From Geothrix sp. (GTDB taxonomy: Bacteria; Acidobacteriota; Holophagae; Holophagales; Holophagaceae): DNA of 64,000 nt. Below are positions 20,964 to 26,561 of this stretch, one piece after another. Position numbers and translations under genes: made by a program. The notes beneath the pieces are model-generated. The model was given only the letters and a program-made list of their open reading frames with translations, had not been told where the DNA came from and did not search any database. The stretch is from the NCBI RefSeq assembly GCF_020622065.1, contig NZ_JAHRYQ010000002.1, positions 741,905-805,904 of the forward strand, read 5' to 3'. The first letter of the stretch is position 1. Each line of letters begins with the position of its first letter.

Positions 20964-21764
20964 TCAGGAGAAGGCCTGGAATCCGGCAATGGCGCCCCGA
21001 ACCTGGAGATCCTGTAGCAACACCCACAGGGCCGGAAGGTCCGACACGCCGAGTTCCCGTGCGGCCTCGGCCAGCGGCGCCGACTGGGCCCGGACCAGCA
21101 GCGCCGCCGTGGCGGGCGTCAGCTCAAGCAGCTGGAAGGCCCCTTCCCGATCCGGGAACGCCAGCAGGTGTGTGGGTCTTGCCTCGGGCACGGGCCCGTC
21201 TTCGCTCACCCGGTGGACGGCATGCCCGTAGGCCACCACCTGGGTCGCGGGGTGGAGGACGATGCGATCTCCCACCCGGGGCTCGGGTCGCAGGTCCGCA
21301 GGCAGCTCCGCCTCGGGAAACCGGCTCACCAGCACTTCCAGGATTTCGGCGTGGGCCAGTTCCGGCAGGAAGGGCCACCGGCTCCGCCCCCACGCGCTTT
21401 CCACCAACCAGCCCAGAAAGGCGGGCGCGATGTCACGGTAGTGGGAGCTCCGAACGCAGCGGGCCTCCAGGAACGCCTGGAGGCAGGCCTCCCAGACCCC
21501 CTCCCGCTCCAGCAGCGCCCGGGTGATCGGGAACATGGTCTCGATGGGATCCACGAGGCTGAGGCGGGCCAGCTCCCGATAGGCCGACAGGCCCTCGCGG
21601 AACGCCAGAAAAGCCTGCTGGTCCGGTTCCCCCAGCCCTCGTCGCTGGGCAAAACCCACGGCATCCCCCTCGAAGGCCTCGCCCTCCGCGTCGAGCACCA
21701 GCCCCGCCAGAGCCCGCTGCAGGATGAGGGTGCGGGGCTCGGCCCCGGCAAGGGTTTCAGCCAT
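20964..21764 (-). CDS. DUF2063 domain protein, predicted partner of the MNIO enzyme
   Basis: 266 residues from ATG 21764 (GGGAG eight bases upstream), overlapping the DUF692 gene by eight bases. The N-terminal 100 residues (LILQRALAGLVLD ... FAQRRGLGEPDQQAFLAFREGLSAYRELARLSLVDPIETMFPITRALL) fit the DUF2063/HvfC-type domain, and the C-terminal part resembles a winged-helix-like peptide-recognition domain. In characterised MNIO systems this type of protein binds the precursor leader and delivers it to the enzyme. Its position as third gene supports that role here. The DUF call is moderately firm, the role is inferred. Confidence 0.72.
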   Translation of the reverse strand: MAETLAGAEPRTLILQRALAGLVLDAEGEAFEGDAVGFAQRRGLGEPDQQAFLAFREGLSAYRELARLSLVDPIETMFPITRALLEREGVWEACLQAFLEARCVRSSHYRDIAPAFLGWLVESAWGRSRWPFLPELAHAEILEVLVSRFPEAELPADLRPEPRVGDRIVLHPATQVVAYGHAVHRVSEDGPVPEARPTHLLAFPDREGAFQLLELTPATAALLVRAQSAPLAEAARELGVSDLPALWVLLQDLQVRGAIAGFQAFS

Positions 21765-22632
21765 GATCCGTCTCCCGCGCGGGCGCCGCCAGCACCTGGT
21801 CATAGGCCACCTGGATGCGGTCTCGCTCCAGGAGCAGCTCTTCCAGGGCCGGGATGTGGTTGTCGCGCTCGAGCAGCACGGGCACGGGGCGCCCGAGGCG
21901 CGCGAGGGCCCACTGCATCAGCTCGATCACCGGGTCGATGACCGCCGCCCCGTGGGTATCGACCGTGAGCGTCCCGAAGCGCTTGTGCCCTGCGATGTGC
22001 AGCTGCGCCACGCGGTCCAGGGGCATGCGCGCCAGCCAGGCCTTGGGATCGAAGCCGAAGTTGAGGGCGTTGACATAGACATTGTTCACATCCAGCAGCC
22101 AGCCCACATCCGCCCCCTCCAGCACCTCCGTGATGAAGGTCGCCTCGTCCATCTCGGCCCGACCCAGCTCGGCATAGTAGGTGATGTTCTCCAGCAGGAG
22201 CGGCACCGGCAGTCGGGCCTGGAGATCCCGGGCCCGCGCCACCGTGTGCCGGACGGCCTCCCGCGTGAAGGGGATCGGCAGCAGCTCATGAAGGCAGCTG
22301 CCGTCCACGCTCGTGAAGCAGAGGTGCTCGGAGTGCCAGGGCGTTTCCGTGCGGACCAGGAAGCGCCCCAGCTCCTGCAAATAAACCTCATCCCAGGGAT
22401 CGAAACCGCCCAGGGAGATGGCCAGGCCATGGGTGAGAACCGGGTCCCGGTCGAGGATGGCGCACGCGTCCCGGTGGGGTCGGCCGCCATCCCCGATCAC
22501 ATTCTCGGGGCAGGTCTCCCAGAAGGGCACGCCATGCTCCGCCAGGGCTGCCACCGCCTCCAGATGGGGGCGGCGGAGGCCCAGGCCCACACCCGCGAAC
22601 CGGCCAAAGCCGCCGAGCCCGTCCTGCGTCAT
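21757..22632 (-). CDS. DUF692 family multinuclear non-heme iron enzyme (MNIO)
   Basis: 291 residues, TIM-barrel fold of the DUF692 family. Metal-ligand and active-site blocks are visible in order: GVGLGLRRPHLEA, HGLAISLGG, HSEHLCF, LLENITYY, LLDVNNVYVNA, AQLHIAGH and the aspartate/glutamate region near VLLERDNHIPALEEL. Characterised members (MbnB, HvfB and relatives) oxidise cysteines in precursor peptides to oxazolone, thiooxazole or similar groups using two or three irons. The start is 16 bases after the precursor stop and its end overlaps the partner gene, so all three genes form one operon. Confidence 0.9.
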   Translation of the reverse strand: MTQDGLGGFGRFAGVGLGLRRPHLEAVAALAEHGVPFWETCPENVIGDGGRPHRDACAILDRDPVLTHGLAISLGGFDPWDEVYLQELGRFLVRTETPWHSEHLCFTSVDGSCLHELLPIPFTREAVRHTVARARDLQARLPVPLLLENITYYAELGRAEMDEATFITEVLEGADVGWLLDVNNVYVNALNFGFDPKAWLARMPLDRVAQLHIAGHKRFGTLTVDTHGAAVIDPVIELMQWALARLGRPVPVLLERDNHIPALEELLLERDRIQVAYDQVLAAPARETDHG

Positions 22633-22648
22633 GGAATCCCCGCGTGGC

Positions 22649-22969
22649 TTACTTCTTTTCCTTGCCGCAGCTGCCTTCTTTCTTGTCCTTCTTGTCCTTC
22701 TTCATATCCTGGCTGCCGCAGCCGCCGCCCCCTCCACAGCCCCCCTCCTTGGCCTTGTCCTTGGCGCCCTTGGCTCCCTTGGCCTCCTTGGCCTTCGCGG
22801 GAGCCTTCTCGCCCTCCTTCGGGTCCTTCGAGCCGCAGTCCCCAGCCTGGGTCAGGGCCGCGTCCGCCCCAAAGGAGCCGACGGGAGTGGCGCCAAGGGT
22901 GGTGGACCCGCCCGCCATCAGGGAGCCGGCGGCGAAGAGCGTGGCGACACCGACGAGTTTCGTGATCAT
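22649..22969 (-). CDS. Predicted MNIO precursor peptide (exported, Cys-motif)
   Basis: 106 residues with an N-terminal signal peptide (about 1-20, MITKLVGVATLFAAGSLMAG). The mature part holds four cysteines: DCGSKD (Cys45), EGGCG (Cys78), GGCGSQD (Cys84) and EGSCG (Cys101), spaced by Lys/Glu/Ala-rich linkers. EGxCG motifs after a signal peptide are the mark of HvfA/DUF2282-type (bufferin-like) precursors modified by DUF692 enzymes. ATG 22969 follows AGGAGG at five bases. No other copy of this peptide is in the window. Modification and metal-binding role are inferred from family and context. Confidence 0.75.
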   Translation of the reverse strand: MITKLVGVATLFAAGSLMAGGSTTLGATPVGSFGADAALTQAGDCGSKDPKEGEKAPAKAKEAKGAKGAKDKAKEGGCGGGGGCGSQDMKKDKKDKKEGSCGKEKK

Positions 22970-22978
22970 GGAATCCTC

Positions 22979-23000
22979 CTGGCGGCCAAGGCCGCGCCAG
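22979..23000 (-). promoter_or_regulatory. Hairpin directly ahead of the precursor ribosome-binding site
   Basis: On the minus strand CTGGCG ... CGCCAG forms a bulged hairpin whose 3' arm runs into the AGGAGG of the precursor gene. It could modulate translation, but no ligand-binding structure is recognisable. Confidence 0.3.
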
Positions 23001-23016
23001 GGGCCGCAGGGCAGCC

Positions 23017-23055
23017 CCGATCATCGGACATGACCCGTCCGGCCCGACGATCGGG
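23017..23055 (-). promoter_or_regulatory. Two similar 11-bp palindromes upstream of the peptide cluster
   Basis: CCGATCATCGG (23,017-23,027) and CCGACGATCGG (23,044-23,054) differ at two positions, are both near-palindromic and lie 27 bases apart centre to centre, 48 to 86 bases ahead of the precursor start. This is the geometry of a double operator for a dimeric regulator. The regulator is not in the window, and the 11-mers could be chance in this GC-rich context. Confidence 0.4.
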
Positions 23056-23105
23056 CGGGAACACAGGGTGGTCAGGTCGTCAGCCAGTGGGGTGCAGCGT
23101 CCCGC

Positions 23106-23250
23106 TTTGGCGTGACGCTTTTTTTGGATTCCGTCTCAAAAAACCGTAGGGGATTCGCACCCCGGGACCTCGATCGGCTTTTTATTGTCGTGGGGAGGAT
23201 TTGAACCCATGGCTGACAACCACTCGGGCGTTCAAGTCTCAAGGCCCCAA
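23106..23250 (-). other. tRNA-like debris in the gap between the peptide cluster and tRNA-Asn
   Basis: This is the rest of the 320-base gap. On the minus strand it holds a T-arm-like GGGTTCAAATCC preceded by an anticodon-arm-like GTGGTTGTCAGCCAT (loop reading GTC) with no variable loop, then about 45 bases on a second T-arm-like GGGGTGCGAATCCCC. Neither folds into a complete cloverleaf with a proper acceptor stem and CCA. They look like eroded tRNA genes or recombination leftovers at a tRNA site. No ORF of note. Confidence 0.4.
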
Positions 23251-23251
23251 T

Positions 23252-23291
23252 CAAAACAAGAAGAGGTCCCGCGGGACCTCTTCTTGTTTTG
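23252..23291 (-). terminator. Perfect 40-bp palindrome, tRNA-Asn terminator
   Basis: The 40 bases are an exact palindrome centred on CCCGCGGG, arms rich in A/G on one side and ending CTTGTTTTG on the minus strand. It overlaps the CCA end of tRNA-Asn by two bases, so it most simply is the terminator of that transcript. Confidence 0.75.
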
Positions 23292-24588: not shown

Positions 24589-25425
24589 TCAGTAGGACCC
24601 CGACCCGACCTCGCCCTGAACCACGGCCACGGAGGCGGACAGGCCCAGACGCGTGGCGCCAGCCAGGACCATGCGCAGGGCGCCCTCGTAGGTGCGGATC
24701 CCGCCGGAAGCCTTCACGCCCATGCCGGTGCCCACGGTGCGCCGCATGAGTGCCACATCGGCCTCGGTGGCCCCACCGGTGGAGAACCCCGTGGAGGTCT
24801 TCACGAAGTCGAGACCGGCCTCCAGCGCCAAGGTGCAGGCCCGCGTCTTCTCCTCCTCGGAGAGCAGGCAGGTTTCGAGGATCACCTTCAGGACCGCGGG
24901 GGCCGGAACCGAGGCCCTCAGGCCTTCCAGATCCCGGCGCACGGTATCCCAGTCGCCGCCCTTGGCCGCGCCGATGGCCAGCACCATGTCCACCTCCTGG
25001 GCCCCGTCGTGCAGGGCCTGCTCGGCCTCCCGGGCCTTGGCCCGGAGGGCCGAAGCCCCCAGGGGGAAGCCGACCACGGTGCAGGTCCGGACGGCGCTGC
25101 CCTTCAACAGGGAGGCGGCCAGGGGCACCCACAGGGGGTTCACGCAGACCGAGGCGAAGCCATGCTTCCGGGCTTCCGCGCAGAGGACCTCCACCTGAGC
25201 TCCCGTGGCGTCCGCCTTCAGGAGGGTGTGGTCGATGAGGGGCGACAGGTCCCAGGGCCCGGCGGGAGGGGCCACCTGGGCGGCCACCCGGTGGTGCTGA
25301 CCCGAACCATCGCGGAAAAGGCACATCTCTTCCACGCAGCCCAAGAGCTGGGGCCTGGCATCACCCGCCAGGGGCTGCAGGCGGGCCCGGAGTTCAGCGG
25401 TGAGGTCGAGGAGGGGATCGATCAT
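24589..25425 (-). CDS. deoC: Deoxyribose-phosphate aldolase
   Basis: Cleaves 2-deoxyribose-5-phosphate to glyceraldehyde-3-phosphate and acetaldehyde in nucleoside catabolism. The DeoC barrel has LIDHTLLKADAT, CTVVGFPLGAS, EVDMVLAIGA, LKVILETCLL and DFVKTSTGFSTGGAT, where VKTS holds the Schiff-base lysine, plus KASGGIR. A roughly 55-residue extension precedes the barrel. The start is uncertain: ATG 25425 is used here (278 residues), with 25437 or 25506 possible; none has a well-placed ribosome-binding site. Confidence 0.9.
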   Translation of the reverse strand: MIDPLLDLTAELRARLQPLAGDARPQLLGCVEEMCLFRDGSGQHHRVAAQVAPPAGPWDLSPLIDHTLLKADATGAQVEVLCAEARKHGFASVCVNPLWVPLAASLLKGSAVRTCTVVGFPLGASALRAKAREAEQALHDGAQEVDMVLAIGAAKGGDWDTVRRDLEGLRASVPAPAVLKVILETCLLSEEEKTRACTLALEAGLDFVKTSTGFSTGGATEADVALMRRTVGTGMGVKASGGIRTYEGALRMVLAGATRLGLSASVAVVQGEVGSGSY

Positions 25426-25518
25426 GCCTTCCATCATGGCCGCTGCGTCGAGTGCGGGAAAGCCGTACGCGGAAAGCGGGCCGAAGCCCGCTTTCCGGTC
25501 GTTCAAATGGAAGCCTGA

Positions 25519-26397
25519 TTACTTCTTGGCTTCTTCCTTCTTCTCAGCCTTCTTCTCGGCCTTCTTGGCAGCCTTCTTCTCAGCCTTGGGAGCGGCCTCA
25601 GCCTTCTTCTCCTCGGCGGTCAGGGCCTTCTTCTCGGCGGCGGGAGCAGCCTCGGCCTTCTTGGCAGCCTTCTTGGCGTGCTTCTTGGCCTTCTTCTCAG
25701 CCTTGGGAGCGGCCTCGGCCTTCTTCTCCTCGGCGGTCAGGGCCTTCTTCTCGGCGGCGGGAGCAGCCTCAGCCTTCTTCTCGGCCTTCTTGGCAGCCTT
25801 CTTGGCCTTCTTCTCAGCCTTGGGAGCGGCCTCAGCCTTCTTCTCCTCGGCGGTCATGGCCTTCTTCTCGGCGGCAGGAGCGGCCTCGGCCTTCTTCTCG
25901 GCCTTCTTGGCGTGCTTCTTGGCCTTCTTCTCAGCCTTGGGAGCGGCCTCAGCCTTCTTCTCCTCGGCGGTCATGGCCTTCTTCTCTTCCTTCTTGGGCT
26001 CGGCCTTCTTCTCGGCCTTCTTGGGCTCAGCCTTCTTCTCGGCCTTCTTCTCTTCGGCGTTCAGAGCCTTCTTCTCTTCCTTCTTGGGCTCGGCCTTCTT
26101 CTCGGCCTTCTTCTCAGCCTTTTTCTCGGCCTTCTTCTCTTCGGCGTTCAGGGCCTTCTTCTCTTCCTTCTTGGGCTCGGCCTTCTTCTCAGCCTTCTTC
26201 TCGGCCTTCTTGGGCTCAGCCTTCTTCTCTTCGGCGTTCAGAGCCTTCTTCTCTTCCTTCTTGGGCTCGACCTTCTTCTCGGCCTTCTTCTCGGCCTTCT
26301 TGGTCTCGACCTTCTTCGCTTCAGGCTTCTTGACCTCTTCCGCGAACACGGGGCTGATCAGAGCGGCGGCGACGAGCAGCGCAGCAAGCTTCTTCAT
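25519..26397 (-). CDS. Exported Lys/Ala/Glu repeat protein
   Basis: 292 residues from ATG 26397. A clear signal peptide (KKLAALLVAAALISPVFA) precedes about 270 residues built almost wholly from K, A and E with some P, N, M and T. Two repeat types follow each other: an N-terminal block around KKEEKKALNAEEKKAEPKKAEKK (units of KKALNAEEKKAE) and a C-terminal block around KKAMTAEEKKAEAAPKAEKK with AEAAPAAEKK spacers. No fold family is recognised; it should form long charged helices or be disordered. The DNA shows matching tandem repeats. Function unknown, possibly envelope- or nucleic-acid-binding. Confidence 0.75.
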   Translation of the reverse strand: MKKLAALLVAAALISPVFAEEVKKPEAKKVETKKAEKKAEKKVEPKKEEKKALNAEEKKAEPKKAEKKAEKKAEPKKEEKKALNAEEKKAEKKAEKKAEKKAEPKKEEKKALNAEEKKAEKKAEPKKAEKKAEPKKEEKKAMTAEEKKAEAAPKAEKKAKKHAKKAEKKAEAAPAAEKKAMTAEEKKAEAAPKAEKKAKKAAKKAEKKAEAAPAAEKKALTAEEKKAEAAPKAEKKAKKHAKKAAKKAEAAPAAEKKALTAEEKKAEAAPKAEKKAAKKAEKKAEKKEEAKK

Positions 26398-26561
26398 GGG
26401 GGTTCTCCCTGGGGTGATCCGGCACGGCCGGAAGTGGCAGAAAGAAAGCAGCATTTGGGCCAACCAACAACTACAGCTAAAACAATAAATAGCAAACAAC
26501 AAAATCCCCCAAACCTGTTGCAAACTGCAACTCGTGGCAGCCTGCGACGGTCACCGGTTCG

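Follow-up and report, generated by a model that had tools for sequence, protein, structure and literature searches.

Captophorins are a large class of RiPPs described in 2024-2026. The MNIO enzymes use O2, and those outside the PME1 group perform other chemistry. The characterized systems that pair an MNIO with a type 1 partner protein (MNIO-PME1) all make 5-thiooxazoles, and they generally bind Cu (PMC13097082). The product of HvfA has been reassigned from oxazolone/thioamide to 5-thiooxazole, and FonA, NgoA, and HvfA are all reported to carry this group (PMC13097082, PMC13419390). The characterized fontiphorin cluster, fonABC, consists of just three genes, encoding a precursor peptide (A), an MNIO (B), and its partner (C) (PMC13097082), and in EGKCG clusters the core genes occur in various combinations (PMC12452194). 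The locus described here, found in a 64-kb stretch of DNA that was analyzed as a whole (the window), extends this large, newly described class to an iron-reducing genus of the Acidobacteriota, Geothrix, a soil bacterium for which literature searches found no publication on MNIO peptides.

The three genes and their surroundings

The operon lies on the minus strand in the order A-B-C, and open reading frame calls in the window confirmed all three genes: the precursor gene A (22649..22969, 106 aa), the MNIO (DUF692) gene B (21757..22632, 291 aa), and the gene C (20964..21764, 266 aa, ATG start at 21764), encoding the PME type 1 partner with DUF2063 and RRE-like domains. A gap of 16 bases separates A from B, and B and C overlap by 8 bases, in agreement with the tight packing reported in the earlier note. 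The next gene downstream encodes an FKBP isomerase. Upstream, tRNA-Asn comes first, and genes for an MglA-like GTPase and a roadblock protein also lie on this flank. Neither DoxX nor a transporter or TonB receptor gene was found beside the operon, and no copper gene adjoined it; a DoxX homolog is encoded elsewhere in the host genome, and B is the sole MNIO in this 3.35-Mb, two-contig genome. That DoxX, transporter, and TonB receptor genes are missing here had been noted earlier and stands, together with a difference from several known layouts, but it is no departure from the characterized range, and a missing DoxX as the mark of a new layout was rejected because fonABC has the same layout (PMC13097082).

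Between tRNA-Asn and A (23120-23290, minus strand), there are stretches resembling tRNA 3' ends, GGTTCAAATCC and GTGCGAATCCC, which may have arisen by decay of tRNA copies or from former integrations. Long repetitive reading frames occur on both strands at 25400-26523, with Ala/Ser/Phe repeats on the plus strand, and probably reflect one repetitive minus-strand protein (25519-26523).

The precursor is a low-complexity, Lys-rich peptide with four Cys residues (C45, C78, C84, and C101). Its predicted hydrophobic, N-terminal Sec signal peptide (22889..22969, minus strand; residues 1-27, MITK...LGA, with putative cleavage before TPV) was judged by eye, and the export-signal segment (MITKLIGAATLFAAGSL) is the best-conserved part of A among 31 relatives. 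The first Cys motif, G43-D-C45-G46 (22832..22843, minus strand), is present in most, but not all, relatives; C45 is missing at loci L024 and L030, and its modification is therefore uncertain. Comparison of precursors delimited two core Cys motifs on the same strand, EGGCGGGGGCGS, containing C78 and C84 (22712..22747) and with DGSCGKGSCGS as its usual form in the genus, and EGSCG, containing C101 (22664..22678); the repeated pattern in the conserved precursor is x-G-(S/G)-C-G. Across the 31 type-1 precursors, Gly follows 162 of the 165 Cys residues (98%) while constituting 17% of all residues, 102 of the Cys residues sit in GSCG, and precursors have between 4 and 8 Cys residues because GSCGKDKK-like units have been gained or lost. 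At the level of sequence, the core motif EGSCG/GGCGGGGGCG, in place of EGKCG, is new here. FonBC accepts Ala, Arg, or Thr before Cys, needs a small residue after it, and rejects Pro, according to the available text of the report (PMC13097082); the Geothrix cores (D/E-G-S-C-G and G-G-C-G) fit these rules, and their Ser and Gly at position 3 lie outside the tests given in that text, as does the core motif as a whole.

No Pfam family matched A, so that the DUF2282 match suggested in the earlier note did not materialize in the HMM search, and the DUF2282/bufferin reading was rejected on this ground. Buf2 peptides are recognized by Cys-Lys motifs and 6 or 12 Cys residues; by motif, A has 4 Cys residues, none of which is followed by Lys. 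The window precursor had no match to the curated HvfA models (KCGExKCG NF050137 and HvfA NF050188), on which the precursor of a congener (L026) reached 15.9 bits against a cut-off of 19.5.

The proposed DUF692 identity of B was confirmed by a match to PF05114 (MbnB_TglH_ChrH) with 293 bits (E=2.6e-87). Its best NCBIfam scores were 266 of 360 bits for HvfB and 250 of 310 bits for BufB, both under the equivalog cut-off, and the MbnB model gave 32.6 of 325 bits; these model scores, together with the DUF2063 partner, led to rejection of the methanobactin reading. In an alignment of 34 MNIOs, H68, H103, E148, D181, N184, H212, D225, T226, H227, E255, and D257 were invariant, and B retains both Asn residues of DVNN and the Arg pair of GLGLRR. 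The HvfB residues N175, D242, and H244, each of which is essential and abolishes activity when lost (PMC13419390), correspond to N183, D225, and H227 of B, with the numbering transferred in this analysis via an alignment to 3BWW, and D257, in the ERD motif, aligns with FonB D249, the proposed base (PMC13097082). The AlphaFold model of B (pLDDT 90) had 3BWW as its best PDB match (TM 0.78/0.89), with further fold matches to TglH and MbnB. By profile, residues, and fold, B is thus a PF05114 TIM-barrel protein with the conserved metal ligands of an MNIO. The residue after D257, Asn258, aligns with Phe250 of FonB, a residue in contact with Lys and Gly of the substrate (PMC13097082), and Asn at this site is, judging by the alignment, also new here. 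It need not alter the product, because FonB F250A and F250D still yield 5-thiooxazole (PMC13097082).

The partner claimed for B was likewise recovered: C contains DUF2063 (PF09836) and NGO1945_C (PF22106), both above the Pfam cut-off, and its best NCBIfam partner model was HvfC, with 90 of 142 bits and thus under the equivalog cut-off. A profile search linked C to 3DEE, the gonococcal partner (E=2.3e-20), and the model of C (pLDDT 95) had significant PDB matches only to 3DEE and TglI (8HCI_A), so that by Pfam, profile, and fold C has the architecture of a type 1 PME, DUF2063 followed by an RRE-type domain as in NGO1945. The locus has the captophorin arrangement of a Cys-rich, signal-bearing precursor (the signal as judged by eye) directly upstream of an MNIO and a PME1. 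Families and gene order support its assignment, as originally made, to the MNIO-type RiPP operons with a DUF2063 partner, nearest to the HvfA type.

Distribution and variation of the operon

PF05114 was detected in 33 of the 47 Geothrix genomes, and in 24/30 among the good ones. At 31 distinct loci in Holophagaceae, a type-1 precursor gene immediately preceded the MNIO gene, in the order A-B-C, with C scored where the locus reached that far. Pairwise dN/dS values against six close relatives were 0.11-0.25 for A, 0.13-0.21 for B, and 0.27-0.39 for C, and A is under purifying selection. The A-B-C recurrence at 31 loci, the purifying selection on A, and the Cys-Gly rule argue that the operon is not due to chance. 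It is absent from some near-complete congeners (genomes G032, G037, and G018) and is therefore not essential. In G018, the site is empty, with tRNA-Asn followed directly by the FKBP gene, and in G032 other genes occupy the tRNA-Asn/FKBP interval. A mobile element at the tRNA site was considered for this variable interval, yet no integrase was seen, and the candidate was rejected. In genomes beyond the window's clade, the surroundings of the operon gave no match to the MglA, tRNA, or FKBP flanks, which indicates that the operon has a different position there.

Among loci with a readable precursor, the Phe250 site is mostly Phe or Tyr, with Lys before Cys, in Bacteroidota and Proteobacteria, and it is Asn, Gln, His, or Ser, with mostly Ser or Gly before Cys, in Holophagaceae and Myxococcota. 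The exceptions are L057, L059, L060, and L133, which combine Asn with Lys motifs, and L088 (Chlamydiota), which combines Tyr with EGSCG. In the MNIO tree, Holophagaceae form one clade (100/99) and Myxococcota another (100/98), and the branch deciding between a single and a double origin of Asn/Gln is weak (90/54). Strict enzyme-substrate covariation (Phe-Lys, Asn-Ser) was rejected because of these exceptions and because the tree allows one to three independent changes; a Phe-Lys/Asn-Ser pairing between enzyme and substrate is retained as a suggestion from the aligned sequences.

The MNIOs of other Acidobacteriota fall in a separate clade and mostly accompany CKGKN-type, Buf2-like precursors. 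The second Geothrix MNIO type has His at the aligned Phe250 site, and an apparent "ERDF" in this type was discarded as a false motif match. At the second MNIO locus of Geothrix fermentans (L061 and L139), a divergent MNIO with DVSN rather than DVNN, and with ERDH, is preceded by a radical SAM/SPASM-like protein (CNLKCAHCY) and has no EGSCG precursor; this enzyme may perform different chemistry. At L132, in another genus of the same family, a CGRRC-repeat precursor (PRCGRRCATFPRCGRRC), unlike EGKCG or EGSCG, lies upstream of the MNIO. At six loci in other Acidobacteriota (L135, L136, L138, L142, L144, and L148), the MNIO is preceded by large proteins with Ser/Gly/Cys-rich C-termini, which resemble TIGR04222 membrane proteins.

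Upstream region, proposed function, and alternatives

A promoter-like bipartite element, CGTCACG-N15-GCACC (23091..23117, minus strand), lies after an A tract about 120-150 nt upstream of A. The form [TC]GTCAC[AG]-N15-GCA[CT][CT] was present in 29 of the 31 upstream regions, at this distance from the start codon, with a constant 15-nt spacing, after an A/T-rich tract, and within otherwise diverged sequence. The count includes L027 and L041, where a chance GCA occurs earlier and the element itself is at 15 nt; L052 and L062 have TGTAACA where the other loci have [TC]GTCAC[AG]. In L003, L006, L008, L011, and L017, the element also precedes the second MNIO type, and it was found in L057 as well. 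The window element is the only match in the 64 kb, and the genome as a whole contains 2 exact matches, this one included. A search for the strict form, AAAAWNTGTCACAA-N14-GCACC, with one mismatch allowed and with genomic positions compared with MNIO gene coordinates, gave 18 matches in 77 Holophagaceae genomes, all just 5' of an MNIO operon, and a reversed control gave 0 matches in the same genomes. As a predicted, operon-specific promoter-like element, [TC]GTCAC[AG]-N15-GCACC is new here. Its constant spacing within diverged sequence argues for function, and part of its conservation could be due to shared ancestry. ECF41 promoters have the form TGTCACA-N16-CGTC, with TGTCACA as the -35 sequence (PMC3426412); the first half of the element is identical to this -35 sequence in most congeners (CGTCACG in the window) and the spacing is similar, whereas in the second half GCACC takes the place of CGTC. 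By its form, the element is a candidate ECF-type promoter.

Just before the Shine-Dalgarno sequence of A, the aligned upstream regions contain two conserved GC hairpins (22982..23018, minus strand) in the presumed 5' UTR. In the alignment, 93% of the cells were paired, but covariation was not clearly above controls, and Rfam had no relevant family match for this region. A structured 5' UTR was rejected for these reasons, although the hairpins are kept, and translational control by them is possible.

The locus is likely a minimal captophorin (MNIO-PME1) operon, and we infer that its product is exported by Sec, carries 5-thiooxazoles formed from Cys, and buffers copper in the periplasm. A dedicated sigma factor, possibly of the ECF type, would start transcription in response to metal or oxidative stress. 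C would bind the precursor and present it to B in the cytoplasm, where B would use a mixed-valent di-iron centre and O2 to oxidize the Gly-flanked Cys residues by four electrons to 5-thiooxazoles, with a mass change of -4 Da per modified Cys. The modified peptide would be exported by Sec and lose its signal peptide. Once in the periplasm, its thiol-bearing heterocycles and Lys-rich chain would bind Cu(I) and buffer copper upon contact of the cell with oxygen or oxidized metal. This captophorin reading is favored by the families and gene order, genus-wide conservation, dN/dS values, catalytic residues, and fold matches, and by the 5-thiooxazoles and general Cu binding of the characterized MNIO-PME1 systems. 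Because HvfA has been reassigned to 5-thiooxazole, methanobactin-type chemistry is not the expected product; of the modified cysteines listed in the earlier note, 5-thiooxazole is now assigned in the HvfA branch, whereas oxazolone is outdated there (PMC13097082, PMC13419390). Counted against the captophorin reading were the lack of a match to the curated HvfA models, the scores of B and C under the HvfB, BufB, and HvfC cut-offs, Ser or Gly in place of Lys before Cys and Asn at the FonB Phe site, with which product or efficiency could differ, the other chemistry of MNIOs outside the PME1 group, the absence of the operon from some congeners, the lack of an adjacent copper gene, and the conflict between an O2-dependent enzyme and the description of Geothrix fermentans as a strict anaerobe (PMC8100337, citing Coates 1999).

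Among three COX1-family proteins in the host genome is a homolog of cytochrome c oxidase subunit I (CtaD, 635 bits; equivalog cut-off, 671); the other two had no NCBIfam match at the applied threshold, and their length makes them putative nitric oxide reductases. Since the host encodes this oxidase subunit homolog, O2 exposure and a need for copper are plausible, and oxic transitions may be where the peptide is used. The locus also poses a puzzle, in that an enzyme which modifies peptides with O2 has been kept in bacteria described as strict anaerobes.

The same enzymes and the same 5-thiooxazole might instead serve a different purpose: the product could bind another soft metal, buffer redox or sulfur stress, or function outside the cell as the metallophore of an iron reducer. 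Geothrix is known for Fe(III) reduction, its precursors are Lys-rich with few Cys residues (4-8), the operon has no adjacent copper gene, and a noncopper function is open for most captophorins (PMC12452194, PMC13097082); however, tested members of the class bind Cu, copper, gold, or oxidative stress often induces their pathways (PMC13097082), and no receptor or exporter for scavenging is attached, so that a different purpose is unlikely but deserves some weight. Another alternative, in which the MNIO with its Asn258 pocket and Lys-less core installs an oxazolone/thioamide as in methanobactin or another Cys oxidation, would be in keeping with the Asn, Gln, His, or Ser at this substrate-contact site in Holophagaceae and Myxococcota and with the scores below the equivalog cut-offs. 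We consider it improbable, given that FonB F250A and F250D still form 5-thiooxazole (PMC13097082), that MbnB relatives use a different partner, and that B scores just 33 bits on the MbnB model. It is hardly credible that A is an unmodified Cys/Lys-rich periplasmic metal-binding protein while B and C act on a peptide encoded elsewhere: A is of low complexity and some MNIO loci have no recognizable precursor (PMC12452194), but A immediately precedes the enzyme gene at 31 loci, its Cys-Gly rule agrees with what MNIOs require of a substrate, and B is the sole MNIO in the genome.

Beyond the captophorin reading of the single locus, a wider proposal is tentative and on the whole rather doubtful: a Ser/Gly-Cys captophorin subclass would extend across Holophagaceae and be paralleled in Myxococcota, its members would combine an altered pocket (Asn, Gln, or His for Phe) with loss of Lys before the modified Cys, a dedicated ECF-type sigma factor would control expression, and copper buffering would be triggered by oxygen in a mostly anaerobic iron-reducing genus. 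The operon-specific upstream element makes the controlling signal and the sigma factor directly testable, and the substrate-enzyme pairs (Lys-Cys versus Ser/Gly-Cys, Phe versus Asn) can be used to probe MNIO substrate choice.

Comparison with known systems

The fontiphorin cluster fonABC of Fontimonas thermophila, a captophorin cluster (PMC13097082), resembles the Geothrix operon in its A-B-C order without DoxX, its x-G-x-C-G repeats, its MNIO with RR and ERD motifs, and its PME1 partner; it differs in its EGKCG core, with Lys before Cys, and its Phe250, where Geothrix has EGSCG/GGCGGGGGCG and Asn258, and it comes from a different phylum. The oxazolin cluster HvfABC(X) of nontypeable Haemophilus influenzae (PMC13419390) shares the gene order and supplies the best-scoring models, HvfB and HvfC, but the Geothrix proteins score under their cut-offs (360 and 142, respectively), and the operon has neither an HvfA motif nor a DoxX-like HvfX. 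The bufferins Buf1 (DUF2282) and Buf2 (Cys-Lys) (PMC12452194) share the MNIO with a DUF2063 partner, the Sec signal, and the copper-buffering role proposed here, whereas Geothrix A has no DUF2282 match and no Cys-Lys motif. Methanobactin MbnABC has the MNIO fold and metal site in common with B but has a partner of another family, an MbnA without a Sec signal, and oxazolone/thioamide chemistry, and B scores 33 of 325 on the MbnB model. The Geothrix locus is a genuine captophorin-class operon that differs at the subfamily level in motif and enzyme pocket, and it is distinguished by its Ser/Gly-Cys core motif, its altered substrate-site residue, its genus-wide conservation, and its conserved upstream element.
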